From positions 1-64,000 of the forward strand of contig CAUJHZ010000061.1 of assembly GCA_963205185.1 (NCBI GenBank): a stretch of DNA of 64,000 bases. The letters run 5' to 3'. Under the pieces are notes generated by a model. The model saw only the letters and a program-made list of their open reading frames with translations. It was not told where the DNA came from and did no database searches. Origin of the DNA: Planctomycetota bacterium. Its GTDB lineage: Bacteria; Planctomycetota; Phycisphaerae; Phycisphaerales; UBA5793. Shown here in pieces: positions 5,280-23,730 of this stretch. The position numbers were made by a program, and so were the translations under genes. The first letter of the stretch is position 1, and every line of letters begins with the position of its first letter.

Positions 5280-6281
5280 TCAGGTGCCTTCGTCGAGCAG
5301 TCGCCGCAGCGCCTGGCGGTAGTGCTCCATCGCCTTTTCGGCCTGGCCGAGCTTCTCGTAGACCATGCCGAGGTAGTAGTGGCTCCGGGCCGGATCGGTG
5401 TTCAGCACGAGCGACTCGGAGAGCATCTTCTCAGCCTCTTCGAGTTGCCCGGCGTGGAAGAGCAGAATGCCGCGCAGCAGTTTGCCGCGCCTGCTGGCGG
5501 CGTCGGACTTCATGACTTCATCGACGAGGTTGCCCGCCTCGTCGAAGCGCTGCATGGCGATGCACAGCGAAGCGAGATCGAGACGTGCCTCCATGTCCGC
5601 CGGATCGACCTCGATGGCGGATCGCAACTCACGCTCGGCCTGGTCGCGCAGCCCTTTCTCGCGCAGCAGGTTCGCGGCCGCGCGGTGGCGCGCGGCACGG
5701 TCTGAAGGCGTGTCGTGGTGAAACCCTTTGGCGGCGAGGTGCTCTTCGAGCTGCTTGTCGTCGAGAAGGCCCAGCGCGTGGCGCGCGTACGCGTCGACCA
5801 TGTGCAGGTAATCCGGCTTGTAGCCGGCGATCACGTGCGACAGGCGACCCTTGGCGTCGACGATGATGGTCGTCGGCAGGACGATGATGCCGAGTTTGCC
5901 GTAGAGCACTCGATCGATGTCGAGCCCCATGGGCGCGTGCAGGCCGGCGCCATCGCGAAAGTCGCGGAACCAGCCCGCCTGAACGACGTCGGCCGTGACG
6001 TACTGCAACTCGAGATCATCGCGCTTCAGGTCGGCGACCGCCTGCTGCGATTCGACCATGACTTTGGTGGAACTGACCTGCTCCGCCGCGACGTACACGA
6101 GCACGAGCGCGTGGCCGCGCGTCGACGCATTGTCGAGCGGCGAATCGCCAAGCGATTTGAGTGAATAAGCCGGAACGGCCTGGCCGACCTTGACGACGCG
6201 CAGTTCATCGGCGAGCGCGGTTGCAGCGACCGCGATCGCGGCGATCGGCGCCAGCAGAATGCTCCAGCGTGCAGTGCTCAT
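5280..6281 (-). CDS. Periplasmic thioredoxin-fold/TPR protein without CXXC
   Basis: About 333 residues. ATG 6281 is chosen because it opens a clean signal peptide (MSTARWSILLAPIAAIAVAATALA). A thioredoxin/TlpA-like fold follows (about residues 30-165): the cis-proline loop VLPTTIIVDAKGRL is there, but the CXXC position is replaced by YVAAEQVSSTK, so no dithiol chemistry is expected. The C-terminal half has about four TPR-like helical pairs (LREKGLRDQAERELRSAIEV; YYLGMVYEKLGQAEKAMEHY). It starts 37 bases after the upstream multihaem gene and closes the cluster. A related protein sits near the other end at 15960-16985. A scaffold or chaperone role in cytochrome assembly is inference. Confidence 0.8.
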   Translation of the reverse strand: MSTARWSILLAPIAAIAVAATALADELRVVKVGQAVPAYSLKSLGDSPLDNASTRGHALVLVYVAAEQVSSTKVMVESQQAVADLKRDDLELQYVTADVVQAGWFRDFRDGAGLHAPMGLDIDRVLYGKLGIIVLPTTIIVDAKGRLSHVIAGYKPDYLHMVDAYARHALGLLDDKQLEEHLAAKGFHHDTPSDRAARHRAAANLLREKGLRDQAERELRSAIEVDPADMEARLDLASLCIAMQRFDEAGNLVDEVMKSDAASRRGKLLRGILLFHAGQLEEAEKMLSESLVLNTDPARSHYYLGMVYEKLGQAEKAMEHYRQALRRLLDEGT

Positions 6282-6318
6282 GACTTGCCCCTTGTCCACG
6301 GCGGCCTCAGCGGCCGCC

Positions 6319-7782
6319 CTACTTTCCATCCGACGCCGGCGCGGCCTGGCCGGCATTGCCTTCGCCCGGCCAGACGGCCGGCTTCTCGACCGGTTCGTAT
6401 TCAACGGGATGATCGCGGTTGTATTCGTACGGCACGTGGCATCCCGGAGCGCACTTGCCGCCCGCGTTGAGCTTCTCGAAATTGATCGGCAGCATCCAGC
6501 CCCCGGTTCCAAACGGCACGGAGTCGCGGATGTGATTCTCCTTGTTGCTCGCGTGCGTTTCGTGGCACGCGCGGCAGGTGCGGCCCTTGGTGTCCTTGTT
6601 CACGTGCAGGTAGTGCAGGTTCAGATCGCCATTGCGGAAATTGGTCAGCGCGGTCGTCCGCTCGTCGTGCACGAGATCCTTGTCGTGGCAGGAGAAGCAC
6701 AGGGCGTAACTCTCCTCGCGGAACGGAGCGTAGAACTGCGGCGGATACTCCTTGATGAGCAGGCGGAAATTGCCCCCGCCGTGAATTTCGTGGCACGCGG
6801 CGCAATTGCCCTGTGCCACCGGCCCGTGCAGACTCTTGCCCGTGGCGAAGACCGCCTTCATGTTCATCAGGTCGCGGCCGTCGGGCATCTTGACCGTGCG
6901 ATCGTGGCATTTCAGACACAGATCCACCATGTCCGTCTTGAGGATCGTCGCGTGATCCGACGCGTGCGGCTCGTGGCAGTTCAGGCACTCCTGGTCCGTG
7001 GTTACGGCGGCATGCTGCGTCGTTGCCGTGTCCACGATGTGCTTGATCGACTCGTGGCACGAAAGACACAGTTCCTTCTTCTCGGCGAGCAGCATCATGG
7101 GGTGATCCGATGCGTGCGGGTCGTGGCAGGCCGTGCAGTCGGTGTTCACCGGGCCGTGCACGTAACGCATCCGCTCGACCTGCTCCTTGGTTGAGGTGTG
7201 GCACTGGAGGCAGAGGTCGCGCCCCTGCGTGAGCAGCAAGTGGTCGTATTCGGAAGCATGCGGCGAGTGGCACGCCGCGCACGCCCCGGCGGCCACCGGG
7301 CCGTGCACCGTCGATTTGCCGGCAAAGACGTTGTCGTGGCACTGCTTGCACAGCGCCGCGGAACTGTCCGCCTTGAGGATGAGCCGGTCCCTTCCGCCGT
7401 GCGGATCGTGGCAGGCGAGGCAGTCGCCGGTCTTGAGGGGTTCGTGAACAGTCGCAGCGCCCTGCACGTTCATCTCGTGGCAGAACAGGCACAGGTCCTT
7501 CGCTTCGCGCACCAGCGAGAAGGTGTGCTGCTGCGCATCGAGCGGCGCGTGGCACGCATCGCAGGCGCCCACTGCGGCGGGGCCGTGCATGACTTCATGC
7601 GCCTTGACGTCGGCGTGGCAGCCAGACGCCAGGCATGATCCCGGCGCGATCTCGCCGGAGGGCCTCTCAGTGGGAGGCTGAATCGGCGCGGCGCCGGCAT
7701 CCGGAGAACGCTGCATGCCCGTCAGCAACGACGCGGCGCCGATCACTGCTGCAATTGCGAAGATGGCGGAAGCCGATTTCAT
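6319..7782 (-). CDS. Multihaem cytochrome c, 15 haem motifs (paralogue C)
   Basis: A 487-residue exported protein with an N-terminal signal (MKSASAIFAIAAVIGAASLL). I count 13 CXXCH motifs, an opening CX4CH (CLASGCH) and a closing CX3CH (CAPGCH). They lie in doubled-CXXCH blocks of the type 'HGPVxxGxCxxCHxPHxS'. Two other cluster proteins (7779-9341 and 16982-18394) have the same 15-motif order and the same C-terminal block (ALCFSCH ... NLHYLHV ... CRACHETHAS ... GGKCAPGCH), so they are paralogues. It should carry electrons in the periplasm or on the cell surface; donor and acceptor cannot be read from sequence. The start overlaps the upstream stop by four bases (ATGA), indicating translational coupling. 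The Pro/Ala-rich C-terminus looks disordered. Confidence 0.93.
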   Translation of the reverse strand: MKSASAIFAIAAVIGAASLLTGMQRSPDAGAAPIQPPTERPSGEIAPGSCLASGCHADVKAHEVMHGPAAVGACDACHAPLDAQQHTFSLVREAKDLCLFCHEMNVQGAATVHEPLKTGDCLACHDPHGGRDRLILKADSSAALCKQCHDNVFAGKSTVHGPVAAGACAACHSPHASEYDHLLLTQGRDLCLQCHTSTKEQVERMRYVHGPVNTDCTACHDPHASDHPMMLLAEKKELCLSCHESIKHIVDTATTQHAAVTTDQECLNCHEPHASDHATILKTDMVDLCLKCHDRTVKMPDGRDLMNMKAVFATGKSLHGPVAQGNCAACHEIHGGGNFRLLIKEYPPQFYAPFREESYALCFSCHDKDLVHDERTTALTNFRNGDLNLHYLHVNKDTKGRTCRACHETHASNKENHIRDSVPFGTGGWMLPINFEKLNAGGKCAPGCHVPYEYNRDHPVEYEPVEKPAVWPGEGNAGQAAPASDGK

Positions 7783-9341
7783 GGCTGACCTCCCGATTCC
7801 TGATCCTGCCCGGCCGGATTCTCGCTCTTGCTCGGTGCGGCATCGTCACCCGGCGTGCGGTGATAGGTCATGGCGACATGGCAGCCGGGGGCGCACTTGC
7901 CGCCGTCCTCCGTGCGCTCGAAACCGATGGGCATCATCCAGTTCGAATTCTCGAAGGGCACTTCCGTCGCCAGGTGCTGCTCCAGATCCGAGCCGTGGAT
8001 TGCGTGGCAAGTCTTGCACGAGCGGCCCTTCTCGTCGCGATGCACGTGCAGGTAGTGCAGGTTGCGATCGCCGTCGCGGAAGTCCGTCAGAGCGGTCGTC
8101 TTCTCGGCGAGGACGAGGTCCTTCGAGTGACAACTGAAGCACAGCGCGTAATTCTGCAAGTCGAAACTCGAGTAGAAGCCCAATGGGAACTCCTGCTTGA
8201 GCAGCCGGCTGTGGGTCGAGCCGTGCACATTGTGGCACGCTGCGCAGTCGCCCGACTCGACCGGCCCGTGCAGGAAGCGCCGACCGGTAACGCTGGCTGT
8301 CATGTTTGGAATGGTGCGCCCGTCCTCCGTCTGAACCGGCCGGTCGTGGCAGGAGAGACACAGGGTCGTCTGGCGATCGCGCAGCAGTTTGGGCCGACCC
8401 GCAGCGTGCGGGTCGTGGCAGTTGGCACACGAATCCGCCGTGAACACCGCCGCGTGCGGCGTGGTGGCGCCGGCGATCGCCTCTTCCAGACCCTTGTGGC
8501 AGTCGAGGCAGAGCTTCTCGGTCGGCTGCTTGAGGTGGAAATCGAAGTCCGAGGTGTGCGCCGCGTGGCACGTCGTGCAATCCTGCCGCGCCGGCTCGTG
8601 CACGTAGGGCGCGTTGGAGATGGCGAACTTCGAATCGGTGTGGCACGCGAAGCAGTGCTCGGATCCGCTCCCGCCCCGGAGCAGATGCGCGTTGTTCGAT
8701 TCGTGCGGCTGGTGGCAGGCCGAGCACTCCCTGGCCGCGAACGGCCCGTGCGCATGCTTGCCCTCTTCGAGCACATGGCAGGTGGAGCAGACCTGATCGA
8801 TTGTCTCCTGCACGAGCAGGAACTTGCGGCCCGCGTGCGGATCGTGGCAGCCGGTGCAGCCGGGCGAATCGAGCGCTTCGTGCTTGTGCAACTGGGTGTT
8901 GCCGGTCTGGTGGCAGAAGTTGCAGGTGTCGTTGCCCTCGCGGAGAAGCGGATAGACATGTCCGCCCGCATCGGCGGCATGGCATGAGAAGCAATCGCCG
9001 GCGGCAAGCGGTCCGTGCAGCCGATCGGCGGCGCCGAAGACAGCATGACACTCGGGGGTGATGCACGTGGCGCCTTCGACCAGCGGCTCCGTGGGCCGCG
9101 GTGCGGGATGATCGGCCGCAATGAACTGCGGCTTGGGCGGCGCGGCCCGCGGGGCGCCTTCGATATAGCGCATCGCCGTGTCGGCCGTGCGTCGCGGTTC
9201 GACCGCGGGCTGCTCGGCCTTCTTTTCTTCCTTGCAGCCGCCCGCGAGCGCGATCATGGCCGCCAGTGAAAGAACGATCGCCCGCGCGCCAAGCGCCGGC
9301 CGCGTTCTGACTCGCATCACACTGGAGGGTCGCGCGTTCAT
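7779..9341 (-). CDS. Multihaem cytochrome c lipoprotein-like, 15 haem motifs (paralogue B)
   Basis: About 520 residues from ATG 9341, whose first base is also the last base of the upstream stop codon. The N-terminus (ALGARAIVLSLAAMIALAGGC) ends in a Cys after a hydrophobic stretch and a KEEKK tail, consistent with a lipoprotein although the lipobox (LAGGC) is imperfect. Haem motifs: CX4CH (CITPECH), 13 CXXCH, then CX3CH (CAPGCH), the same order as the two paralogues in the cluster. Lipid anchoring would place it on a membrane face, perhaps between the soluble paralogues and a membrane partner; that is inference. No porin of the MtrB/PioB kind is visible nearby. Confidence 0.92.
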   Translation of the reverse strand: MNARPSSVMRVRTRPALGARAIVLSLAAMIALAGGCKEEKKAEQPAVEPRRTADTAMRYIEGAPRAAPPKPQFIAADHPAPRPTEPLVEGATCITPECHAVFGAADRLHGPLAAGDCFSCHAADAGGHVYPLLREGNDTCNFCHQTGNTQLHKHEALDSPGCTGCHDPHAGRKFLLVQETIDQVCSTCHVLEEGKHAHGPFAARECSACHQPHESNNAHLLRGGSGSEHCFACHTDSKFAISNAPYVHEPARQDCTTCHAAHTSDFDFHLKQPTEKLCLDCHKGLEEAIAGATTPHAAVFTADSCANCHDPHAAGRPKLLRDRQTTLCLSCHDRPVQTEDGRTIPNMTASVTGRRFLHGPVESGDCAACHNVHGSTHSRLLKQEFPLGFYSSFDLQNYALCFSCHSKDLVLAEKTTALTDFRDGDRNLHYLHVHRDEKGRSCKTCHAIHGSDLEQHLATEVPFENSNWMMPIGFERTEDGGKCAPGCHVAMTYHRTPGDDAAPSKSENPAGQDQESGGQP

Positions 9342-10876
9342 CACTGCTCGGTTTCTGCGGGGCTGGCGCCGAGTCGGCTGCCAATCTCCTTGCAGTTGTC
9401 GATCGAAAGATTCAGCAGCGCCGTGGCATAGGTGATGTTGTGCACGCCGTGAGCAGTGCGTACGAACTCCACGTTCTGGCTGGCGTCGTTGAGCAGCCGC
9501 TGGAGCGCGAGTCGCTCGGCGTCGTCGGCTATGCTCGCGCCGTCGAGGGCGACTCGGGCCGCTTCCACGGCCGCCTGCGCCTGGCTGAGCAGCAGATCGA
9601 CGGAGTTCTTCCACACGTCCAGCACGCCCGTGTAACGGGTGCCGTGGCACGAATCGCACGCCTTTTGCGCGGCGAGGTAGGTGTAGCCCGAAACGCCGTG
9701 CGAAGCGCCGCTGGTCTCTTCGAGGTGGCAGGCGATGCAGTCCACCTGCGCGGTGAACATCGGGCTGGGCATGTTGGGCACGCCGAAGCCTCCCACGCCG
9801 CTGTACATCTTCGCCGGCCCCGAGTGCGTCGCCGAGTGGCACTGGGCGCAGCCTTCCGACGCCTCGCCGGTTTCATGAATCATGCCGGCCAGCGAGAGCG
9901 CCCGATTCGGATTCGCGGTCAAGTGGTGTTCGATCTGCACGTGGCAGTTCGAGCATTCGAGTTTGTGCTCGCTGACGTGAGCGCGGTGCATGAGTTGGGT
10001 TTCGCCGTACTTGGCCAGCTGCTGCGGCTGGTTGTGGCAGGTCCAGCACAACTGGCGCGGCACTTCGCCGTCGCCCTTGATGGCCTCGGAGTGGCAGTTC
10101 TCGCACGCCACCTTGCGATCGAGGTATTCCTGGTGGTTGAACAGCCCCGTGGCGAGGCGGATGTCGCCCTGAGGCGCGCTGTGGCACGAGCCGCAACCGC
10201 CGAGCACTTCTTCATCGCGGCCGTGCTTGACGCCCTTGAAGTGGCAGGTGAAACACGTATCGAGCGTGACCACCAGGTGCTGACCCTGCACGATCTGCGA
10301 GTGGCACGACGAGCAGCGCAGTTCTTTGCCGCGACGCAGTTCGCCCAGGTGCGGCGTGTGGTTGAAGTGGATCTTGATCTTGTCGCCGCGCTGCGTGGGC
10401 ACCTCCCACTCCACCAGCCCGTCGAGCAGGCGCTGCTCGTGGCATCCCTCGCGCAGACACGATTCATCGCGAATCTCGGCGTGCGGCTTGGAGCCGTAAG
10501 TCCGGGTGATGTACTTGGCGACCTGGCTGCTCGCCTGCCACTTGCCCTTGAGCGTGTTCTTGATGCCCGGCTCCATGTGGCAATCGACGCAGGGCACGTC
10601 CTTGTGCGTCGACTCGTGCCAGGCCACGTAGTACGGCTCCATGAGGTGGCAATTGCGGCAGAAGTCCGGCTCCATGGAGTACTCCGCGAACGCGAGGCTC
10701 CCTCCCACCACGATGAGCACGGCGTAGCCCATTTTGGCCCACAGCGTCAGGCCGAACGGGACGTAGCGGCGATCCACCCGACGGACCCCCAGAATCCTCC
10801 ACAAAGTGGGAATCGGCCGACCGGAATCCGGGGCCGTTTTCTCAGTTTCGACAGTGCCAGACATGTCAGACTCCAT
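9341..10876 (-). CDS. NapC/NrfH-like membrane-anchored cytochrome c with 12 haem motifs
   Basis: A 511-residue protein with one membrane helix (about residues 45-67, WAKMGYAVLIVVGGSLAFAEY). Directly after it comes the NapC/NrfH-type start CRNCHLMEPYYVAWHESTHKD, then CVDCHMEPG. Ten more motifs follow, including a CX4CH (CLREGCH), making 12 in all. NapC/NrfH proteins take electrons from quinol at the outer face of the inner membrane and pass them to periplasmic partners, so this is a second candidate quinol-oxidising module in the operon, with a large C-terminal multihaem extension. The last 90 residues have no Cys motifs and look helical. ATG 10876 or ATG 10864 could be the start; both have purine-rich sites. 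Confidence 0.88.
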   Translation of the reverse strand: MESDMSGTVETEKTAPDSGRPIPTLWRILGVRRVDRRYVPFGLTLWAKMGYAVLIVVGGSLAFAEYSMEPDFCRNCHLMEPYYVAWHESTHKDVPCVDCHMEPGIKNTLKGKWQASSQVAKYITRTYGSKPHAEIRDESCLREGCHEQRLLDGLVEWEVPTQRGDKIKIHFNHTPHLGELRRGKELRCSSCHSQIVQGQHLVVTLDTCFTCHFKGVKHGRDEEVLGGCGSCHSAPQGDIRLATGLFNHQEYLDRKVACENCHSEAIKGDGEVPRQLCWTCHNQPQQLAKYGETQLMHRAHVSEHKLECSNCHVQIEHHLTANPNRALSLAGMIHETGEASEGCAQCHSATHSGPAKMYSGVGGFGVPNMPSPMFTAQVDCIACHLEETSGASHGVSGYTYLAAQKACDSCHGTRYTGVLDVWKNSVDLLLSQAQAAVEAARVALDGASIADDAERLALQRLLNDASQNVEFVRTAHGVHNITYATALLNLSIDNCKEIGSRLGASPAETEQ

Positions 10877-10924
10877 TCCCGAGACCTTCCGCAGGACTCA
10901 CTGCAACCCGCATGCCCGAAGGCG

Positions 10925-13180
10925 TCACAGGGCCTGAAGTCCTCCCAGAACGATGAGCACCACCATGCCCGTCCCCACCAGCATCGCCACCACGCCCACG
11001 ACAATCGCCGTGATCCGCTGCCACCGGGGCGCGGGGTCGGTGCGGAACTTGTCCAGCCGCTGCCGCTCGACGAGGTGCGCGTATTCCGCGGCCCGCTCGT
11101 GCTTCATTTCCTCTTCCGGAACGCGGCCGGTGAAGATGACGTCATCCACGGGGAACTTCTCGAGCCGCAGGTGGGCATTGAAGAAGTGGATGGTGAAGAT
11201 GAATCCGACGGCCAGCAGCGCCTCATAGCCGTGCACGACCATCGCGATGTTGAACGCCCAGCCCGGCAGCACGTGCGCCGCAGTTTCGGGGAACCACAGG
11301 AGCAGGCCCGAGCCGCCGATGATGAACGTGCCGACAATCTCGGCCCAGTAGTCAAACTTCTCCCAGTACGTCCAGCGGCCGAAGGCGGGCTTGCCGCGCC
11401 CGGTGATGAACCAGCGGAACATGCCCACGCAGTCTTTCACGTCCTTCCAGCGCGGGAACAGCGAGTGCGGGCCAAAGAGCCAGCCGAGCACCGTGCGCGT
11501 CGGGCCCAAGGGTGTGGTGCGCGCCTGCTGGGCGACCTCGCGGCCGGCTCGCAGGACGCCGATCACGTGCAGGACGAAGTTGAACATCAGCATGATCGCG
11601 AAGAAGCGGTGCCACGTGCCCGCGGCGTCCACGCCGCCGAACACCCTCGCGAGCGTGCCCGCCCAGGGCCGGTCGGAGAAGAACAGCGGGATGCCGGTGA
11701 AGGTCAGGCCGAAGAAGCTGATGATCACCAGCACATGGTTGACGCGGTTGATCCGCGTGAAGCGGCGAATGGCTACGCCCTTGTGAAGAACCGGCCGCGG
11801 CCCGTTGCGGCGCCGCTCGATGACCATGCGGAGAAACCACAGCAGCGAGTGCAGTCCGAAGAATCCGAACGCAGCGCTGATGACGATCAGGAAATACAGC
11901 CACACGCCGTGCAGCAGTGGGTAGCGGTCGGCATCGCGGTAGTCGGCGTGCGGATCGAACATCGCGAAACTGGGCGTCGCGCTTTCATGGCACTTGGCGC
12001 AGACCTGCACCCGGTGCTCGCCATGCAGGGCCGAATTCGGATCGCTGATGGGCAGGATGTCGTGAGCGCCGTGGCAGTCGCTGCAGCGCGCCGGGCGCGT
12101 GGAGCCGAGTTGCGTCACCTGGCCGTGGTAACTGTCGCGGTAAGTCTCGTAGAACGTGGCGCGCCGCGAGCCGGACATGGCGGGATCGTTGTGACAGTCG
12201 CCGCACTCGTTCACGATATCGAGCATGAACGACGACACATTCGTGCGCGTAATGCTGTGGGCGGTGTGGCAGTCGGTGCACACCGGGACCTTCTGGCTGT
12301 TCTCTTCTCCGCTGACGCGCACCTTGGCGTGCACGCTCGTGGCGAAGGTCTCGCTGATGCCCACGTGGCAGCGCCCGCAGGTGGTGGGCACCTGGTCGCG
12401 ATGAACCGGCGAGCGTTCATCGGTCGCCGGGTGCACTTCGTGGAAGCCGTGACAATCGGCGCACGTGGCGGCAACGACCAGGCCGCCCTCCGTGACCAGT
12501 TTGCCGTGCACGCTCTCGAGATAGGCGCTGACCAGCGCCTCGCCGCCTTGCTCGACGGAAGAATTGGTCGCGTGCTGGCTGTGACAGCCGGCGCACGTCG
12601 CGACGATGTTCATGGGATACGTTTTCGAATTGCGGTCGCGCGGCGGGAGAATGTCGTGCCCGCCGTGACACGTCGAACACGTCGGAGTCTGGCCGTTGCC
12701 CGGCTGGGGCTCTTCGGCGTGCACGCCGCGCGTGAACGCCGCCGCCTCGGAGGTGTGGCACGAAGAAGTCGCGCACGACGCCGGCTGCAGCGTCTGCGCA
12801 TGCGGCAGGGCCGCGGCATCGGCGTGGCAGTCGACGCACGAGAGCATCGAGTGCTGCGGGAAGGGAATCTGGTCGGCTGAAATATACAGCCCCGGCCGGG
12901 TCGCCGGCTCATCTTCACCCGGCAGGGTTTGCCGGTCGGTCTGGCCGATCATCGACCGCCGCTCGAACGGATCCAGCGTGGCAATGTGCGCCTGGCCGTG
13001 GCAGTTGAGGCAGCGGCGGTTGTCGGTGGGCGAAGGCGCTTCCTGCTGCGCCGGCGCCGCCGCGGCGACCGCAAACGTCATGCACACAACCAGGAATGCC
13101 TCCCGCAAACGGGAGTGCGATTGAGGCTTGGTCCGCTCAGCGGCGGGGCGCTTTCCAGACTGTCTGCTCAGAAGAATCAC
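10925..13180 (-). CDS. CbcL-like fusion: periplasmic multihaem cytochrome c plus membrane cytochrome b
   Basis: 751 residues, GTG start at 13180, 12 bases after the preceding stop. A signal sequence (about residues 24-45) is followed by a periplasmic region with 11 haem motifs: ten CXXCH and one CX4CH (CATSSCH). From about residue 405 the protein becomes a multi-helix membrane domain with spaced His pairs ([70 protein letters not shown]) resembling the dihaem cytochrome b of formate dehydrogenases and hydrogenases. The same architecture is known from the Geobacter inner-membrane quinol oxidase CbcL, which feeds extracellular electron transfer. Electron flow from menaquinol to periplasmic cytochromes is the likely role, by analogy. 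Confidence 0.88.
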
Positions 13181-13192
13181 GATCCACCCGCT

Positions 13193-14812
13193 TCACGCAG
13201 CGTGCTCCCGGTCGAGGAAGGATGACTTGTAGTACACGAGCAGCCCGGAGAACGCCAACAGCAGCACCACCGCCGCAGAGCCGACCTTGGTCTGCTGGCG
13301 CTGCTGCTCTCGCAGCCGCTCGATGAGATCATGCGTTGCCTGAATCCGATCAACCCCGTCGCTGATTTCCGTGGCGAAATTGTTGATGTCGCGCATGTTG
13401 AAACTGTGAAACACCTGCCGCAACCGCGAATTCACTTCCGCTGCGTTCTGCTGCACCTGCTCGAGCGAAAGGTTGCGATAGCCCCAGGCCGAAAGATCGG
13501 TGCTGAGTTTGGTGGACTCGGTTACCTGGTCTTCGGTCTGCATCAGGATCTCTTTGATCCGCTTGACGGATTCCATCGTTGCGGCGCGGTGGCAAGGCGA
13601 GCAGCGACCGCCCTCGGCCCGCGAGCGCGTGTCGATGATGTCGGGCGACGGCTGGGCGATCTTGTGACTGCCCTGCCCGTGGCAATAGAGGCACGTCGGG
13701 TCGCCGAAGTCGCCGTGCGGGCTGCCGAGGTGCTTTTCCTTGATGTCGGCGTGGCACTTGCCGCAGAAGTACGACACGGCCCGGCCGCGCGTCTGGCTGA
13801 CGAACTCGCTCTCGTTGAGGTAGGTGACGAGGAAATCCGTCTGGCGCTCGAGGTGCGCGGCCCGCTTGAACGCGTCGTCGGACTCAAACTGATCGCGGCG
13901 CAGCGCCGCATTACCGCCGTGGCAGCCGTCGCAGCCGACGTTGGCCGCGAAATGCACGCTGTGCTTCCATTCGAGTTCGACGATCTCGCTCGACCGGCCC
14001 GGCAGGTTCATGTGGCACTGCACGCAGTTGCTCTGCGCGTAAGGATCGGCCTCGTGTCCTTCTGCGGGTGGACTCGAAGCTTCAGGCGGCGACGCGGCCA
14101 AAGCGCGCACGGCCGGCAGCGCCATCGCGGCCAGCGCCGCCAGCAGCAGCAGGCTGTGGTGTTTGAGCCCGGCAAACGGCGGCTCGGTCTCCGGCTGGCC
14201 TTCGCGGTAGAGCACGCGCCGAATGGCCCGCCGCTCGTGCGCGATGAGCACGTAGAACACGATCACGGCGATGCCGGTGAAGATGAAGAACAGCGGGCGA
14301 TGCCCGAAGTATTCGGAGAGAGGCGCCAGTTGCTCGCCTTCCGCGGTCATCTTCTCGGGCCAGCCGCCCCAGAACGTGAAGATGATCGCCAGCGCCGCCA
14401 CGGTGGTGACTGCAATGCGATAGAACCACCTCGGCCGCGTCCGCGCTCTCTGGCCGCGGTACCAGAACGGCAGCAGCACGATGACGAGAATCACGGGCCC
14501 CTGGCTGAGTACGCCCCACGTCTTGCCGCTCAAACCCAGCAGCGTCGTCGGCCACACGCGGAGATACTGGTAAACTGCGAGGAAGTACCACTCGGGCTTG
14601 ATTCCCACGGGCGTCGAACCCTGCGGGTTGGCGGGCTGCTCTTCGTGAGCCATCCCGTGCACGCCGAGCATGTCCAGCAGCACGGGCAGAATGACCAGGA
14701 GCATGATGATCGCCAGGCACACCAGGACTGAAACCGTCATCTTGATGATCTCGTTGGGCCAGAACGGCTCCAACTGATCGACTTCGTATTGCTCGCGGTA
14801 GTCAACGCCCAT
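13193..14812 (-). CDS. Cytochrome bc subunit IV (PetD-like) fused to a pentahaem cytochrome c
   Basis: About 539 residues from ATG 14812, which has AGGAAGGA upstream and lies 23 bases after the cytochrome b stop. Residues 1 to about 215 correspond to the C-terminal half of cytochrome b/subunit IV, with the Qo-site PEWY motif (GIKPEWYFLAVYQYLR) and several membrane helices. A further hydrophobic segment and a Pro/Glu-rich linker lead into a periplasmic domain with five CXXCH motifs (CVQCH, CDGCH, CGKCH, CLYCH, CSPCH). A helical region and a last membrane helix (VGSAAVVLLLAFSGLLVYY) follow. No cytochrome c1 or f gene is nearby, so the pentahaem domain probably takes electrons from the Rieske centre. 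The fusion is unusual. Confidence 0.9.
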   Translation of the reverse strand: MGVDYREQYEVDQLEPFWPNEIIKMTVSVLVCLAIIMLLVILPVLLDMLGVHGMAHEEQPANPQGSTPVGIKPEWYFLAVYQYLRVWPTTLLGLSGKTWGVLSQGPVILVIVLLPFWYRGQRARTRPRWFYRIAVTTVAALAIIFTFWGGWPEKMTAEGEQLAPLSEYFGHRPLFFIFTGIAVIVFYVLIAHERRAIRRVLYREGQPETEPPFAGLKHHSLLLLAALAAMALPAVRALAASPPEASSPPAEGHEADPYAQSNCVQCHMNLPGRSSEIVELEWKHSVHFAANVGCDGCHGGNAALRRDQFESDDAFKRAAHLERQTDFLVTYLNESEFVSQTRGRAVSYFCGKCHADIKEKHLGSPHGDFGDPTCLYCHGQGSHKIAQPSPDIIDTRSRAEGGRCSPCHRAATMESVKRIKEILMQTEDQVTESTKLSTDLSAWGYRNLSLEQVQQNAAEVNSRLRQVFHSFNMRDINNFATEISDGVDRIQATHDLIERLREQQRQQTKVGSAAVVLLLAFSGLLVYYKSSFLDREHAA

Positions 14813-14835: not shown

Positions 14836-15495
14836 TCAAAGCGGTTTGGAAATCCCCGTCCGGCGGATCATGACGAAGTGCATGCCCATGAACGCGCTCA
14901 TGATCGCCGGCAGAATCCAGATGTGCAACGAGAAGAAGAACCCCAAAGTCTCGCCGCTGATCGCCTTGCCGCGGCGGACCCACTCGACGACGTCCGTGCC
15001 GATAATCGGTATGGCGCTGGGGATCTCGGTCCCGACTTTCGCCCCCCAGTAGCTCAACTGCGTCCACGGCAGCAGGTAGCCGGTGAAGGCCATCATCGTC
15101 GTCAGAAGCAGCAGCAGCACGCCGCTGACCCAGTGCAACTCGCGCGGGGTGCGATAGATCTTGTAGTACGCGATCCTCGCCATGTGCATCAGCACGAGCG
15201 CGATCATCAGGTTGGCCGCCACGGCGTGAATGCGCTGCACCAGCCAGCCCATCGTGACGTTCGACTTGATGAACGTCACGCTGTCCCAGGCGCTCTCCGG
15301 ATGCGGCTTGTAGTACATGAGCAGCAGCATTCCGGTAAACACCTGCACCAGGAACGTGAAGAACGCCAGCCCGCCGAAGCAGCCAGCCCACGAAAGCGTG
15401 CGCGGCACCCACTTCTTCGTGACGTTCTTTTCCAGTTCGGGCGTTACGTCGAAGCGGTTGTCAATCCAGCCATAGATGCGTCGAATCACACTCAT
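14836..15495 (-). CDS. petB: Cytochrome b6-type subunit of a Rieske/cytochrome b complex
   Basis: 219 residues, the length of a split cytochrome b6. Four membrane helices are visible. Two His pairs for haem b are seen: HAVAANLMIALVLMH in helix B (14 residues apart) and HIWILPAIMSAFMGMH in helix D (15 apart, the longer spacing seen in b6-type proteins). The protein forms the quinol-oxidising core together with the PetD-like half encoded next (13193-14812) and the Rieske protein (15505-15963). CFGG near the start of helix A resembles the cysteine that binds the extra haem c in b6; whether one is bound here is uncertain. The gap to the Rieske gene is nine bases. Confidence 0.94.
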   Translation of the reverse strand: MSVIRRIYGWIDNRFDVTPELEKNVTKKWVPRTLSWAGCFGGLAFFTFLVQVFTGMLLLMYYKPHPESAWDSVTFIKSNVTMGWLVQRIHAVAANLMIALVLMHMARIAYYKIYRTPRELHWVSGVLLLLLTTMMAFTGYLLPWTQLSYWGAKVGTEIPSAIPIIGTDVVEWVRRGKAISGETLGFFFSLHIWILPAIMSAFMGMHFVMIRRTGISKPL

Positions 15496-15504
15496 GTCAG
15501 TCTC

Positions 15505-15963
15505 TCAGGAGATGATGAGATTGCCTTCCTTCACTTCGAACGGAATCTCAAGAAGCGGGGCGCTCACGGGGCCGCTGACGACCTGGCCTTCGCCGCTGAA
15601 CACGGCGCCGTGGCAGGGACAGTGGAAATTGCTGTGAGCCGTGTCCCAGACCACGTTGCAGCCCAGGTGCGTGCACGAAGCGTTGAAGACGCGCGGCCCG
15701 GACTCGCTCATCACGACCACGACCTGCTGGCCATGGAAGTCGGCGTAGTACGCCTGTCCGGGGATCAGTCGGTCAAGCGGTATCTGCACGGGCTTGGATT
15801 CGCCGAGTCGAACCGGCAGTTTGAGGAACGCGACGATGGGGTACACAACGGTTCCGACGGTGATTGCCGCCGCACCGCCGATGCACGCCTGGCAAAAGCG
15901 CCTCCGGCCGCTGCTGGGCGGTTCGTGTGGCCGGTCGTGCGCGTGATCGCTGGCCATGTTCAT
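15505..15963 (-). CDS. petC: Rieske [2Fe-2S] protein
   Basis: 152 residues. An N-terminal twin-arginine-like motif (SGRRRFCQACIGG) precedes one hydrophobic helix, as in Rieske proteins exported by Tat. The cluster-binding motifs are intact: CTHLGC (about residues 100-105) and CPCHG (about 118-122). The protein receives an electron from quinol at the Qo site of cytochrome b and passes it to a c-type haem, here probably the pentahaem domain fused to subunit IV. Its ATG overlaps the upstream stop by four bases, and cytochrome b follows nine bases later. Confidence 0.96.
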   Translation of the reverse strand: MNMASDHAHDRPHEPPSSGRRRFCQACIGGAAAITVGTVVYPIVAFLKLPVRLGESKPVQIPLDRLIPGQAYYADFHGQQVVVVMSESGPRVFNASCTHLGCNVVWDTAHSNFHCPCHGAVFSGEGQVVSGPVSAPLLEIPFEVKEGNLIIS

Positions 15964-16985
15964 TGGTCCGCTCCCTGCCGCTCGAGCAGCAGCTCTGCCG
16001 CCCGCTTGTAGCTGGCCGCCGCCTCGGGCATCTTGTCACGCTGTTCGAGAATCATGCCCATCAGGTAGTGGGCCCGGGGCTGGGTAGGATCGCGGTCGAG
16101 CACCTCGCGCACCAGCGCTTCGGCCTGGGCCAGTTCGTCGCCGCCGCGCACCGCCTGGACATACGCCACTCCGAGCGTGGCTTCGACGAGATCGGGATGA
16201 TCCGCCAGCACGGTCCGGAACTGCGTTTCGGCCTCGGCGATGCGGTGGCGCTTCAGATTCAGCCGGCCGAGCCCCAGCCTCGCTTCGACGCTCTGGGGCC
16301 ACAGCGCGATGGCCTCGCGGTACTTCTCGTCGGCCATTTCATCGAGGCCGCGCCGCGCCAGTTGCCGGGCCAGTTGCGTCACGCGACCGGCGCGAATCTG
16401 CACTTCGTTCAGATCTCCCGGCGTCTCCGGATGCAGCGCTGCTTCGAATCGCTCCACGCTCAGGCGTCCGAGTCCCAGGAGCAGCGCGTCCGTCACGATG
16501 TCGCCCATGCGCGGCGTGACGCCCGCCAGGCTGTAAATCACCCGGCCGTCGCCGCCGACCACCACGACCGTCGGCATCACGCTCACCCGGTAGGCTTCGT
16601 ACGCCTGCCGATTCGGATCGTGCAGCACGACGCCGGCAAAGCCAAGCGCTTCCGCCTGGGTCTTCAGATCGAGGCGCGATGCATTCTGCGCAACGACCAG
16701 CACCGGCGCGATGCGGTCGCCCGCCAGCCTCGGATCATCGAGGACGCGCTCGATGGCGGCGCAGCCTTCGCGCGTCGGCTGGTGGTAGAGTTCGCCAAAG
16801 ATCACTACATACGGCCGACCCTGCACGCTCTGCGCGTCGAAGACATTGCCGTCGAGATCGGCAAGCACCAGCGGCGGCGCTTCCGAGCCGCGCGGCGGCA
16901 TCGTCGCCGCGCCGGCCGCAGCGCAAATGCTCGTGATCAGCAACGCGCCCCAGCGGCCTGCAGACCCGAGAAGGTCAACTCTCAT
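15960..16985 (-). CDS. Exported thioredoxin-fold/TPR protein without CXXC
   Basis: 341 residues. A signal sequence (about residues 10-27) is followed by a TlpA/AhpC-like fold. The usual CXXC is replaced by ELYHQPTREGC, a single Cys, while the cis-proline loop (SVMPTVVVVGGDGRV) is kept. At least three TPR-like repeats follow (ADEKYREAIALWPQSVEARLG; AHYLMGMILEQRDKMPEAAA). Architecture and degenerate active site match the protein at 5280-6281, so the pair brackets the cytochrome genes. It overlaps the genes on both sides by four bases and sits between the first cytochrome and the Rieske gene. A role in assembling or docking the cytochrome complex is inference; disulfide exchange is unlikely. Confidence 0.8.
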   Translation of the reverse strand: MRVDLLGSAGRWGALLITSICAAAGAATMPPRGSEAPPLVLADLDGNVFDAQSVQGRPYVVIFGELYHQPTREGCAAIERVLDDPRLAGDRIAPVLVVAQNASRLDLKTQAEALGFAGVVLHDPNRQAYEAYRVSVMPTVVVVGGDGRVIYSLAGVTPRMGDIVTDALLLGLGRLSVERFEAALHPETPGDLNEVQIRAGRVTQLARQLARRGLDEMADEKYREAIALWPQSVEARLGLGRLNLKRHRIAEAETQFRTVLADHPDLVEATLGVAYVQAVRGGDELAQAEALVREVLDRDPTQPRAHYLMGMILEQRDKMPEAAASYKRAAELLLERQGADQ

Positions 16986-18394
16986 TGCCCGCCTCCCTTC
17001 AGTGGACTGGCCGGCGCGGTCTGCTGCAGCTCGCCGCGTGCATAACTCTTTTCTTCATGGCAGCCCGGCGAGCAGCGCCCGCCATCATCCATTGCTTCAA
17101 AGTTGATCTCGAGCATCCAGCCGCTCGAGCCGAACGGCACCGCCTCACGGATGTGGAACGGCCGCTTGGAGGCGTGCACCTCGTGGCAGGCCCGGCATGT
17201 GCGGCCCTTTTCCTGGTTCACGTGCAGGTAATGCAGATTCTGATCGCCCTCGCGGAATCGCGTCACGCCGATGCCCGACTTGGTCGTCACCATCTCCGGC
17301 AAGTGGCACGTGAAGCACAGCGCGTATCGATCGAGATCGAACGCCGCGTAGAACTCGGGCGGATACGTCTTCACGAGAAGGTTCGCGTTCTCGGCAGCGT
17401 GCGGCTGATGGCATGACGAGCATGAGCCCGCGCGAATGGGGCCGTGATGATCTGGTGAGTCGTGCAGCAGCAGCGCCATGTTCGTCAGCGTCCGCCCGCT
17501 CTCGGTCTTGAGCGGTTGATCGTGGCACGAGAGACACGTATCCGGCTCCGGGCGCTTCTGCAGATTCGGCAGCGTCGAAGAGTGAGGCGAGTGGCAACCC
17601 GTGCAGCCGTTGGCCTGATGGACCGCGCCGTGCACCACCGACGAGGCATCGATTTTCTCCATCATTTCGCCGTGGCACTTGGCGCACAATTCATCGGTCG
17701 CCGCGCGCAGCATGAACGGGTTGGGCGAGGCGTGCGGATTGTGGCAACTCGTGCAGCCCTGCTCCATCGCCGCGTGCACGTGCAGTCCGGCGCCGCTCTG
17801 CGCCACTTCCACGTGGCAGTCGGCGCAGAGTTCGTTCGTGCTCTTCACGAGAAGATTCGCCTTCCACGAAGAGTGCGGCTCGTGGCAGAGAATGCACGCG
17901 CCGGCCGCGACCGGGCCGTGCACGTGCACCAGCGGATCTTCCTCGTGGACGTGGCAACTCACGCACAATCCGCGCGTCGGATCGGCGATCAGCATCATCC
18001 GGTGTTCCGAGCCGTGCGGATCGTGGCAGCCGGTGCACTGTCCGGTGGCCACCGGTCCGTGCACGACGGTCCGATGTTCCATGAGGTGGCACTTCGAGCA
18101 CAGCGTGTCCTGGTTGATGGTCTTGAAGGTGTGCTCGCGCGGCTCGTCGTATTGATGGCAGGCGTCGCATTTGCCTTGGGCCGCCGGACCGTGAAGGAAC
18201 TTGTGCTCGAGCGTGGAGGCGTGGCAGCCCGACTGCGTGCAATTCTCGACGGCGGTCGAGGGTCGGGGCGGCACGTCTGCGGCCGCGGCGTCGCTGGCGG
18301 GAAGCAGTCCCGCCGCCAACACAGCCAAGAGGACCGCGGACAAGCGGCTCTTCGATAACGTGATTCCGGGGCGTTTCGACAATGCAGCCTCCAT
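16982..18394 (-). CDS. Multihaem cytochrome c, 15 haem motifs (paralogue A), first gene of the cluster
   Basis: About 470 residues from ATG 18394, which opens a signal peptide (SRLSAVLLAVLAAGLLPASDAAA). The ribosome-binding site is weak (GGCGAG). Haem motifs: CX4CH (CTQSGCH), 13 CXXCH, CX3CH (CSPGCH), in the same order as the two downstream paralogues, with the same HGPVxxGxCxxCHxPH blocks. The regular spacing is typical of doubled-CXXCH cytochromes. As promoter-proximal gene it may be the most abundant cytochrome of the set. An in-frame extension upstream to 18646 lacks signal-peptide character and was not used. Confidence 0.92.
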   Translation of the reverse strand: MEAALSKRPGITLSKSRLSAVLLAVLAAGLLPASDAAAADVPPRPSTAVENCTQSGCHASTLEHKFLHGPAAQGKCDACHQYDEPREHTFKTINQDTLCSKCHLMEHRTVVHGPVATGQCTGCHDPHGSEHRMMLIADPTRGLCVSCHVHEEDPLVHVHGPVAAGACILCHEPHSSWKANLLVKSTNELCADCHVEVAQSGAGLHVHAAMEQGCTSCHNPHASPNPFMLRAATDELCAKCHGEMMEKIDASSVVHGAVHQANGCTGCHSPHSSTLPNLQKRPEPDTCLSCHDQPLKTESGRTLTNMALLLHDSPDHHGPIRAGSCSSCHQPHAAENANLLVKTYPPEFYAAFDLDRYALCFTCHLPEMVTTKSGIGVTRFREGDQNLHYLHVNQEKGRTCRACHEVHASKRPFHIREAVPFGSSGWMLEINFEAMDDGGRCSPGCHEEKSYARGELQQTAPASPLKGGGQ

Positions 18395-19377: not shown

Positions 19378-20727
<1,350 letters not shown>

Positions 20728-20774: not shown

Positions 20775-21185
20775 TCAGAAGAGCAATTTGAGCAGGTAGT
20801 CCAACCGGCCGCGCAGGACGATGCGCCGGCCCGACTCGCGCATGACCTCGCGGATCTGCTGCCGGTACGTCGGGTGATAGCAGTGGCTCGGGCAGTGCTT
20901 GCACGCCGGCTTGGGATCAAACGGGCACGTCGCCCGCTTCACCCAGGCATGCTGCAGCAGACGCGCGCACTGCGGGCAGAGCACCGGCGGGCGGCGCATC
21001 ACGTCCTCCCACCCGGCCGCGGTGATCGGCGCTTTCTCACTTTCTCGATTCTGGTGATTCGCGCTGCAGTACATCTCAATAAAGAGACCCAGCAGCCGCA
21101 GGTCTTTGCGGAGTTTCCGGTCCTCCGAAGCGTCTGAGCGAAGCACCGGCAGGCGAAAAGCGCGATTGGCAGTTGAAATCGTCAT
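20775..21185 (-). CDS. Cysteine-rich protein of the 'nitrous oxide-stimulated promoter' family
   Basis: 136 residues. The diagnostic part is the C-terminal half: LCPQCARLLQHAWVKRATCPF, KPACKHCPSHCYHP and REVMRESGRRIVLRGR, which match the Cys-rich family named for a nitrous oxide-responsive promoter. Six Cys in that stretch suggest a metal or Fe-S site. The biochemical function of the family is not known. It lies convergent with the NtrC-type regulator, between it and the kinases. The exact start is uncertain; a later ATG at residue 39 (MYCSANHQN) is possible. Confidence 0.75.
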   Translation of the reverse strand: MTISTANRAFRLPVLRSDASEDRKLRKDLRLLGLFIEMYCSANHQNRESEKAPITAAGWEDVMRRPPVLCPQCARLLQHAWVKRATCPFDPKPACKHCPSHCYHPTYRQQIREVMRESGRRIVLRGRLDYLLKLLF

Positions 21186-21256
21186 GGTTCCCGGTCATTG
21201 CGGTTGCAAATCCCGTGCCCGCTCGCTCTGGCGCGCCGTTTGTAGATCAAGACTCG

Positions 21257-22372
21257 ATGCTCCGACGTCGCCTGCTTCTGGGACTTGGCTCCATGATCGT
21301 CCTCTTCGCCGTGCTGGCGATCGGGTCGGTCCTGCTGCTCGACCGCCTCGTGGGCGAGATCGATGACATCAAGGCGACGACAACCACCTACATCTCGCAG
21401 TTGCACGATCTCGGCGGGCACGTCACCGCCGTCGAATCGGCCCTCTACGCGGCCGACCCGCAGACGCTCCCTGCTGCCGAAATGTCGCAGGCTGCGGCCG
21501 ACATGCGAATCGTGATCGGGCGGCTCGGCGACGTCGCGCTCGAGTGGCCCGAGCATTCACCGGCCCCGGGACTCGCCGGCCGGCTCGTCGAAACCGTTCC
21601 CGCCTTTGCCGATCAGGTTGACGCCCTGGCCCGGCTGTCGGATGTGCAGTCCTTCGCCGCAGCGCGCGATCCGGTTCTGCGCAGCCACGTCGCCATACAG
21701 ACCGACGTCCTTGAACTGACTCGCCTGTCGCGGGCCTTTGCCGCCGACAGCCAGACCGCCATCACCAGCCGGTTCCGCTGGATCGTGCTCGGCGTGGCGG
21801 TGGCGTCCATACTCGTGGTCAACGTCTCGATTCTCGTCGTGCTGCGGACCGTCGGGCTCGTCCTGCGGCCGATGGAGCAGATCATCGCCGCCACGAGCAT
21901 CTGGGCCCGCGAGCGCTTCGATCACCGCATCGTTCTCGACCAGCCGGATGAATTCGGCCAGTTGGCCCGCGCGCTCAACCAGATGGCTGATCGGCTCGAA
22001 GTCAGTGAACTGCGCAAGATCGAAACGCTGCAGCAGACGGCAAGGATGCTCAACCACGAATTGAACAACGCGCTGGCGATCATCAGTCTGCAGGTGCAGC
22101 TGCTCGACCGGGCCCGCGATGCGTCCCCGGAACTCAAAGACCGGCTGGATCGCATCCGCGCCTGCCTGGCGCGCATGACCAACACCGTAGACCTGCTCAA
22201 GCAGGTTCGGCGCATCGTGCTCACCGACTACGTGCCCGGGGAGAAGATGCTCGACCTGCCGCGCTCGATCGGCGAAGGAGCCATCGCCGAGGATGAGCTG
22301 CCGCCGGCCGAGGTCACGGTCGCTGCCGCGATGAGACCCACTCCTGCTGCTCAAGGCCCGCCACTGACGTGA
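21257..22372 (+). CDS. Sensor histidine-kinase-like protein without an ATPase domain
   Basis: About 371 residues from ATG 21257. Order: membrane helix (about 8-28, LGSMIVLFAVLAIGSVLLL), periplasmic helical sensor (about 29-175), second helix (about 177-200), HAMP linker with DQPDEFGQLARALNQMADRL, then a dimerisation/phospho-acceptor helix MLNHELNNALAIISLQ containing the candidate His. After about 50 more residues the sequence becomes Pro/Ala-rich and ends: there is no N, G1 or G2 box, so it cannot bind ATP as a normal kinase does. Its last four bases overlap the GTG start of a complete kinase. Phosphorylation in trans, or a sensor subunit, is a reasonable inference. A longer start at 21173 is possible but adds residues without signal character. 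Confidence 0.75.
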   Translation: MLRRRLLLGLGSMIVLFAVLAIGSVLLLDRLVGEIDDIKATTTTYISQLHDLGGHVTAVESALYAADPQTLPAAEMSQAAADMRIVIGRLGDVALEWPEHSPAPGLAGRLVETVPAFADQVDALARLSDVQSFAAARDPVLRSHVAIQTDVLELTRLSRAFAADSQTAITSRFRWIVLGVAVASILVVNVSILVVLRTVGLVLRPMEQIIAATSIWARERFDHRIVLDQPDEFGQLARALNQMADRLEVSELRKIETLQQTARMLNHELNNALAIISLQVQLLDRARDASPELKDRLDRIRACLARMTNTVDLLKQVRRIVLTDYVPGEKMLDLPRSIGEGAIAEDELPPAEVTVAAAMRPTPAAQGPPLT

Positions 22373-23730
22373 CGCACGCATTCTCCGCCGCCAACAACCG
22401 TCTGCTGCTGAGCCAGGTACGCTGGCTGGTGTCGCTGCGCTGGGCTGCGGGGGGCGCCGTCGCGATCGCTGCGCTCGTCGATCGGGTGTGGCTCCAGTGG
22501 TTTCCCAACGCCACCGCCGCGCTCATGCTGGGCATTACGATTCTCGGCTTCAACGCCATGGTGGCGGCCTGGACGCGCCGGAGCATTCCGCTGATGCGCC
22601 ATCCGCGCCGTCTGCTGCTGGCGGTCTGGCTGCAGATCGGCGTCGATCTTTCGCTGCTGGCGATCCTCACGGTGTGGACGGGTGGGCTGGGCAGCATCAT
22701 CAGCGGCTTCTTTGTCTTCCACATGGTTTTCGCGAGCCTGCTGCTCGGCCAGACGATGGCGTATCTTGCCGCGACTTACGCCGTGTGCATCTTCTTCACG
22801 CTGCTGTGCACGCTGGGCCCCTCTCCGGCGAGCCGCGCCGACGCCCTCGCCGGGGTCGGCTTCATCCTGACGCTGTATCTCACCGTGTTCATCGCCAATC
22901 ACCTCACGACCCGACTGCGTCTCAACGAGCATCGCCTGCACGAACACTCCCGCCGCCTGCTGGAGATGACCCACCGGCTTCGCGACCAGCAGCAGGCGAT
23001 GGTGCAGCACGAAAAGATGGTGGGCCTGGGGCAGCTCGCCGCGGGCCTGGCCCACGAGATCGCCAACCCACTCGCCTCCATGGACAGCGTGCTTCAACTC
23101 ATGATCCGCAAGCCCGAGCGCATCACGGAGTCCGCCATCCGAACCCTCCGCGAGCAGATCGACCGCATCAGCAACATCATCCGGCAGATGACCGCGTTCG
23201 CGAGGCCCGACGACCCGACGGGTCCGCCAGTGCCCATCGGCCAACTCATCGAGCGAGTGACCCGCATCATCCAACTCGATCCGCGCGCCCGGCATCTGCA
23301 ACTGATCGAAGATCTCGATCACCGTCTCGCAGCCCGGTGGCTGGTGCCCACGGCCGTGCAGCAGGTGCTCGTCAACCTCTCGCTCAATGCGCTGGATGCG
23401 ATGGCGGGCGTTCCGGATCCACGCCTGACCATCCGCCTCATCCACCGTGCTCATCAAAACGTGGTCGAAGTGCAGGACAACGGCTCAGGAATCGCGCCGG
23501 AGCACTTGAACCGGATCTTCGAGCCTTTCTTTACCACCAAGCCGGTTGGCAAGGGCACGGGCCTCGGATTGTCTATCTCGTATCGGCTCGTCGAAAAGCA
23601 CGGTGGAACATTGCGCGTGCAAAGCGTCGTCGGGCGCGGCACGACGTTCACCATGGTGTTTCCGAGCCCCAAAGCGGCGCTGCGCACCACAGAGCCGGCC
23701 GACCCGGAAGCCGAGCCGGCGCGCGTTTGA
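22369..23730 (+). CDS. Membrane sensor histidine kinase
   Basis: 453 residues with a GTG start at 22369, overlapping the previous stop by four bases (GTGA). The N-terminal 180 residues form about six membrane helices without a large extracytoplasmic loop. A short coiled coil leads to the H-box (LAAGLAHEIANPLASM). The ATPase domain follows, with N-box LSLNALDAM, G1 VQDNGSGI, F-box FEPFFTTK and G2 GKGTGLGLSIS. This is a complete autokinase, most likely paired with the NtrC-type regulator at 19378; the signal is not predictable. SixA is encoded 62 bases downstream. Confidence 0.93.
   Translation: MTHAFSAANNRLLLSQVRWLVSLRWAAGGAVAIAALVDRVWLQWFPNATAALMLGITILGFNAMVAAWTRRSIPLMRHPRRLLLAVWLQIGVDLSLLAILTVWTGGLGSIISGFFVFHMVFASLLLGQTMAYLAATYAVCIFFTLLCTLGPSPASRADALAGVGFILTLYLTVFIANHLTTRLRLNEHRLHEHSRRLLEMTHRLRDQQQAMVQHEKMVGLGQLAAGLAHEIANPLASMDSVLQLMIRKPERITESAIRTLREQIDRISNIIRQMTAFARPDDPTGPPVPIGQLIERVTRIIQLDPRARHLQLIEDLDHRLAARWLVPTAVQQVLVNLSLNALDAMAGVPDPRLTIRLIHRAHQNVVEVQDNGSGIAPEHLNRIFEPFFTTKPVGKGTGLGLSISYRLVEKHGGTLRVQSVVGRGTTFTMVFPSPKAALRTTEPADPEAEPARV

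Follow-up and report, generated by a model that had tools for sequence, protein, structure and literature searches.

A single reading frame for subunit IV and a pentahaem cytochrome c in a Rieske/cytochrome b6 operon of Phycisphaerae

The window, a 64,000-nucleotide stretch of DNA from a Phycisphaerae-like planctomycete, carries on its reverse (-) strand a single open reading frame at 13193-14812 that runs from ATG to TGA. The translated sequence comprises 539 amino acids and joins a PetD-like subunit IV to a pentahaem cytochrome c. The subunit IV half (residues 1-203; 14204-14812) contains the PEWY motif of the Qo site and displays four predicted membrane helices, at residues 27-45, 98-116, 133-151 and 173-191. 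It is followed by an internal signal-peptide-like segment at residues ~217-240 (14093-14164; LKHHSLLLLAALAAMALPAVRALA/ASP), by the pentahaem domain with five CXXCH motifs at residues ~258-420 (13553-14041), and by a C-terminal membrane helix at residues 510-528 (13229-13285). The four helices and the signal-like segment compare with three helices for a b6-type subunit IV. A first-pass annotation had described the PEWY-containing half, the five CXXCH motifs and the final membrane helix as parts of one frame, and all are seen here. The domain-architecture search that it proposed finds both expected parts in that frame: Pfam places Cytochrom_B_C (PF00032) at residues 60-153 (E 5e-13) and multihaem c models of the c3/c7/c554 type at ~255-412. 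The NCBIfam subunit IV model TIGR01156 scores 38 bits, far under its own cut-off of 127 bits.

The CXXCH motifs of the fused protein, at residues 263-267, 294-298, 350-354, 374-378 and 404-408, are all invariant across 27 homologues. The pentahaem part also has extra histidines, of which H287, H366 and H383 are invariant and H361 and H469 nearly or widely kept; H469 sits beyond the haem domain, in a helical stretch. These five are candidate distal haem ligands, and judged from the alignment the conserved extra histidines would suffice for bis-His ligation of five haems. A search of PDB sequences with the haem profile gives a best match of only E ~0.01. AlphaFold2 models have a mean pLDDT of 66 and 72, with values below 50 in the central haem region, which is too poor to place the haems. 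With these moderate-confidence models, neither Foldseek nor VIA yields a significant structural match: HAO-family entries appear at E 0.56-2.5 in Foldseek, tied with unrelated helical bundles, and at Z 5.6-6.8 in VIA, again among unrelated helical bundles.

Upstream on the same strand are the split cytochrome b6 and Rieske genes that the first-pass annotation had named as neighbours, both identified by Pfam: a cytochrome b6 of 219 amino acids (14836-15495; E 2e-55) and a Rieske protein of 152 amino acids with CTHLGC...CPCHGAVF (15505-15963; E 1e-11). The cytochrome b6 histidines show b6-type spacing, with 13 residues between H90 and H104 and 14 between H191 and H206, and C39 stands at the putative attachment position of haem c-i. 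The CPCHGAxF motif is found in every Rieske protein of the family that was matched. Further upstream are a thioredoxin-like (AhpC-TSA/Redoxin) protein with TPR (Tlp/TPR; 15960-16985) and a multihaem cytochrome of the paired-CXXCH type (16982-18394, inferred start codon) with 13 CXXCH in relatives (MHC13); the latter is a conserved upstream neighbour in relatives. Downstream of the fused gene, also on the (-) strand, lies a multihaem c with 10 CXXCH joined to a cytochrome b561-type membrane part, a CbcL-like architecture (10925-13180), followed by a NapC/NirT-type membrane multihaem cytochrome with 11 CXXCH in relatives (9341-10876) and two multihaem cytochromes of the paired-CXXCH type (7779-9353, start not fixed, and 6319-7782). 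A second thioredoxin-like/TPR gene (5280-6512) ends the cluster, so that two such genes flank the cytochrome genes. In most split relatives, too, a thioredoxin-like/TPR gene is found beside the Rieske gene, and its product may have a role in cytochrome assembly. As the CbcL-like and NapC/NirT-type genes (9341-13180) share the operon with a b6-type complex, three kinds of quinol-oxidising entry may coexist.

All five genomes of the window's genus have this fused frame uninterrupted, at 76-93% identity. Among these genes dN/dS is ~0.05-0.25 in both halves and up to 0.9 in the linker; both halves are under purifying selection. An assembly slip, a frame artefact or chance is ruled out by the same open frame in five independent genomes and by the low dN/dS. 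Outside the genus, every relative examined (at least 14 genomes) has two genes in the same operon. In a class sample of 397 genomes, 16 were matched, three of the window's genus with the fused frame and 13 with separate frames. A phylum sample of 392 genomes gave four profile matches (two of the window's genus and two split), none identified as anammox, and no further, more distant homologue groups. The few matches indicate that the family is uncommon and that the fusion is confined, in those samples, to one genus. The MAGs that carry related loci have labels of Phycisphaerae or of other Planctomycetota in almost every case; one of them, PLA1, bears the label Vicinamibacteraceae, yet its contig matches G002, a genome placed in the window's genus.

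The gene order MHC13, Tlp/TPR, Rieske, b6, subunit IV, five-haem protein is kept in the split relatives L017-L028 as far as their contigs extend; in G366 the operon genes are present in a different order. The core is also present in six-haem relatives, which show no Tlp/TPR match. In two split loci, L032 and L033 (G729 and G602), subunit IV has ~345 amino acids versus the usual 190-220, an unexplained extension.

Comparison with the split loci suggests how the fusion was formed. In most of them the start of the haem gene overlaps the subunit IV stop by 4 nt (ATGA). In L017, for example, the subunit IV stop is at 7956 and the haem ATG at 7953; the overlap is found likewise in L019-L022, L024-L026 and L031-L033, and L027, with a frame change in subunit IV, is an exception. 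The haem protein of the split relatives begins with its own signal peptide. In the tree, the fused sequences form a single clade among split ones, with support of 100/100. Given separate genes in every relative examined outside the genus and one fused clade, the sequences indicate that the fusion arose once, by the joining of coupled genes, and recently, in the ancestor of one Phycisphaerae genus. The simplest account of its origin is a small change joining the two genes.

Of interest is that the old signal peptide is still visible at the junction, where a basic stretch leads into a hydrophobic segment. All five fused proteins have such a segment, with AxA sites, and behind it a variable Pro/Glu-rich linker whose rate of evolution far exceeds that of both halves; in G003, one of the five, the signal-like segment falls below the hydropathy cut-off. 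An internal start giving two proteins was considered and rejected for the window gene, which has no start codon just before this segment; G001 has a GTG there. The former signal peptide is a possible cleavage site or a possible fifth helix.

The junction bears on whether the mature product is one chain or two, and the signal-peptide-like sequence, together with split relatives that lack a covalent link, indicates that it may be two. The gene could encode a polyprotein, a variant of the main explanation given below: the chain would be inserted whole, signal peptidase would then cut where the internal hydrophobic segment ends in AxA, and the products would be an ordinary subunit IV and a separate pentahaem cytochrome on its own C-terminal helix, with the covalent link only transient. 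The signal peptide of the split haem proteins, at the corresponding place, and the conserved succession of hydrophobic stretch, AxA sites and fast-changing linker point this way; alanine-rich helices, however, yield AxA sites easily, and the odds of cleavage are put at about even. Bradyrhizobium FbcH is a cytochrome b/c1 polyprotein consisting of a whole cytochrome b and a monohaem c1, and is known to be cut. The window gene resembles it in placing a b-family subunit and a c-type partner in one frame across an export signal, and differs in having subunit IV and a pentahaem partner and in that cleavage is, from the sequence, only possible. Slightly less probable is that the chain stays intact, so that a Qo-site subunit and a five-haem periplasmic wire would be one molecule. 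If so, the product represents a b6-type complex with a built-in multihaem exit, in a family that swaps its acceptor freely between a separate five-haem protein, a five-haem domain fused to subunit IV and a six-haem-NAD(P) oxidoreductase passing through the membrane.

The first-pass annotation had also proposed that the fusion fixes the exit route for electrons. The comparisons do not support this: among the relatives examined outside the genus none has the two genes joined, the haem protein has an anchor of its own in the C-terminal helix, and the sequence of the junction continues to resemble a cleavable signal peptide. Function does not require fixing by fusion; the complex and the anchor helix already determine the exit route, if it is one.

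The predicted topology has the N-terminus inside, PEWY and the haems outside and the C-terminus inside. The two interior n-side loops have 5-9 Lys + Arg each and the p-side loop is acidic, a positive-inside pattern. An independent indication comes from four loci of family f111 (L037, L038, L041 and L042, in G620, G703, G667 and G629, respectively), where the haem protein has six CXXCH motifs and is separate from subunit IV. Past the membrane helix, the same frame runs into an NAD(P)-oxidoreductase-like domain, shown by Pfam as Fer4_20 and Pyr_redox_2 in L037, L038 and L041 and by similar cysteine motifs in L042. Because the f111 protein continues into these domains, its C-terminus would be cytoplasmic and its haems outside. 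The f111 protein may bridge periplasmic haems and cytoplasmic NAD(P) within a single chain, in a manner reminiscent of the Kuenenia complexes. A haem domain on the wrong side of the membrane would have spoken against a role as Rieske acceptor; the predicted topology places it on the Rieske/Qo, that is, periplasmic, side.

A genome-wide search finds no match to cytochrome c1 (PF02167) and one sub-threshold match to cytochrome f (PF01333), in a frame without any CXXCH. This match is not a hidden cytochrome f, as it reads like RNA polymerase beta'. The absence of a c1 or f gene, previously noted for the window, thus extends to the whole genome, and without such a subunit the complex strictly counts as neither b6f nor bc1. 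Across the planctomycete operons that were examined, the genes for MHC13, Rieske, b6 and subunit IV, and in most cases Tlp/TPR, accompany the pentahaem gene. The lack of c1/f, the predicted Qo-side haems and the conserved linkage fit a complex subunit that replaces c1/f. The earlier proposal of such a replacement therefore stands in part: the pentahaem part probably takes the place of cytochrome f, and direct electron transfer to it from the Rieske protein is what we infer from that position. Other multihaem proteins of the operon could be the Rieske acceptor instead.

Ser and Tyr near the Rieske cluster raise its potential (effect sizes in PMC12954380). The Rieske protein of the window has Ala/Phe at these positions, and the lack of Ser and Tyr suggests a complex of low potential and menaquinol type, suited to multihaem acceptors. 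The Rieske proteins of Kuenenia differ in having Ser/Tyr or Ser/Phe, at +303/+335 mV; Kustd1480 has Phe, yet titrates at +335 mV and breaks a simple low-potential rule (PMC12954380). A low potential from Ala/Phe is not certain.

The best explanation, with a rough probability of 0.7, is a b6-type complex in which electrons pass from the Rieske protein to the pentahaem subunit and on to the multihaem cytochromes of the operon. Its starting points are the domain content and its conservation, the operon context, the two-gene relatives, the single fusion origin in the tree and the c1/f absence; the topology, haem ligation, transfer from Rieske to pentahaem, low potential and onward acceptors are what we infer. 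The fused gene product would accept electrons on the p side of a b6-type Rieske/cytochrome b complex, whose Qo site (PEWY) would be formed by cytochrome b6 and the subunit IV half. Quinol, probably menaquinol, would be oxidised at Qo with bifurcation, one electron passing to haems b and c-i and the second to a Rieske centre of low potential. The Rieske head would then reduce the pentahaem domain, placed where cytochrome f or c1 would be, and five putative bis-histidine haems would relay the electron to other multihaem cytochromes of the operon. Two genes coupled in translation (ATGA) would have been joined into one in the common ancestor of one genus of Phycisphaerae, and the old signal peptide, which may still be cut, would now act as a helix returning the haem domain across the membrane.

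Alternatively, the pentahaem protein might act as a parallel shuttle linking the complex to the quinol dehydrogenases of the same operon (NapC-type and CbcL-like), the Rieske protein passing its electron to the 13-haem protein or another cytochrome. The CbcL-like, NapC-type and several multihaem cytochromes of the operon show that other acceptors exist, but a five- or six-haem gene directly follows subunit IV in nearly all relatives, NapC-type and CbcL-like genes are not always nearby, and the six-haem loci have no CbcL- or NapC-like gene in the stretches read, which makes a shuttle unlikely. Improbable to a somewhat greater degree is a complex that works in reverse or feeds NAD(P)+ reduction, with the pentahaem part as electron entry, as proposed for the Kuenenia complexes, which combine a multihaem c with an NAD(P) oxidoreductase (PMC12954380). 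Sister lineages do have a haem protein and an NAD(P) oxidoreductase in one chain; the window protein, however, ends 11 residues past its last helix, and no NAD(P) oxidoreductase is found among the window operon genes scanned. As to the onward path from the pentahaem subunit in the preferred explanation, the genome shows no MtrB/PioB porin; this gives no support to a classical porin-cytochrome conduit and leaves room for other routes.

Several known systems share part of this organisation. Bacillus QcrC has one haem, of the ordinary cytochrome c type. In the Bacillus subtilis QcrABC menaquinol:cytochrome c reductase, subunit IV is fused to a c-type cytochrome in QcrC (PMC3475470). The window operon is similar in its split b6, in having subunit IV and a periplasmic c-type cytochrome in one chain (here at the gene level) and in its b6-type organisation. 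It differs in five haems of the multihaem type, in an additional helix resembling a signal peptide and in an anchor at the C-terminus; moreover, the fusion here arose separately, from a two-gene operon. The complexes Kuste4569-4574 and Kustd1480-1485 of Kuenenia stuttgartiensis have a hexa- or octahaem c instead of cytochrome f (PMC12954380). The likeness, in architecture, is that of planctomycete complexes with b6, a subunit IV with extra helices and a multihaem c for cytochrome f. The Kuenenia multihaem protein is described as separate and as accompanied by an NAD(P) oxidoreductase, unlike in the genes scanned of the window operon; the f111 sister lineage shares the oxidoreductase, there in one chain with six haems. 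In Geobacter, the Rieske and b genes of GSU2930-2937 likewise lie in a cluster with several multihaem cytochromes, among them one with five haems (PMC2825233); no fused subunit IV-pentahaem protein has been described there.

The fusion of subunit IV with a c-type cytochrome, a multihaem c in place of f and clusters of Rieske/b and multihaem genes are thus already known, and what appears to be new is their combination in one gene. In a limited literature search, no subunit IV-pentahaem protein encoded by one gene, with a two-gene series behind it, was found. Cytochrome f/c1 is the least conserved part of Rieske/b complexes, and its replacement decides where the energy-conserving electron goes. 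The planctomycete family presents a natural series on the same b6/Rieske core, namely a separate pentahaem protein, a fused pentahaem domain and a hexahaem protein with NAD(P) oxidoreductase. It links the Kuenenia complexes, in architecture, to non-anammox planctomycetes and indicates a way in which a proton-pumping Q-cycle complex could pass electrons straight to multihaem wires. A survey reported no cytochrome bc1 complex in any Phycisphaerales genome (PMC11266412); c1-less complexes of the present kind may escape such annotation.

Elsewhere in the genome of the window there is a second split b6/subunit IV pair (L013 7304-9300, on contig C57 of G000), of 261 and 381 amino acids, with PWY instead of PEWY and no haem c gene in the immediate vicinity. 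The genome also has four COX1-family genes. Adjoining the operon on the opposite strand are a sigma-54 response regulator (19378-20727, +) and histidine-kinase genes (21173-23730, +), which might control the operon.
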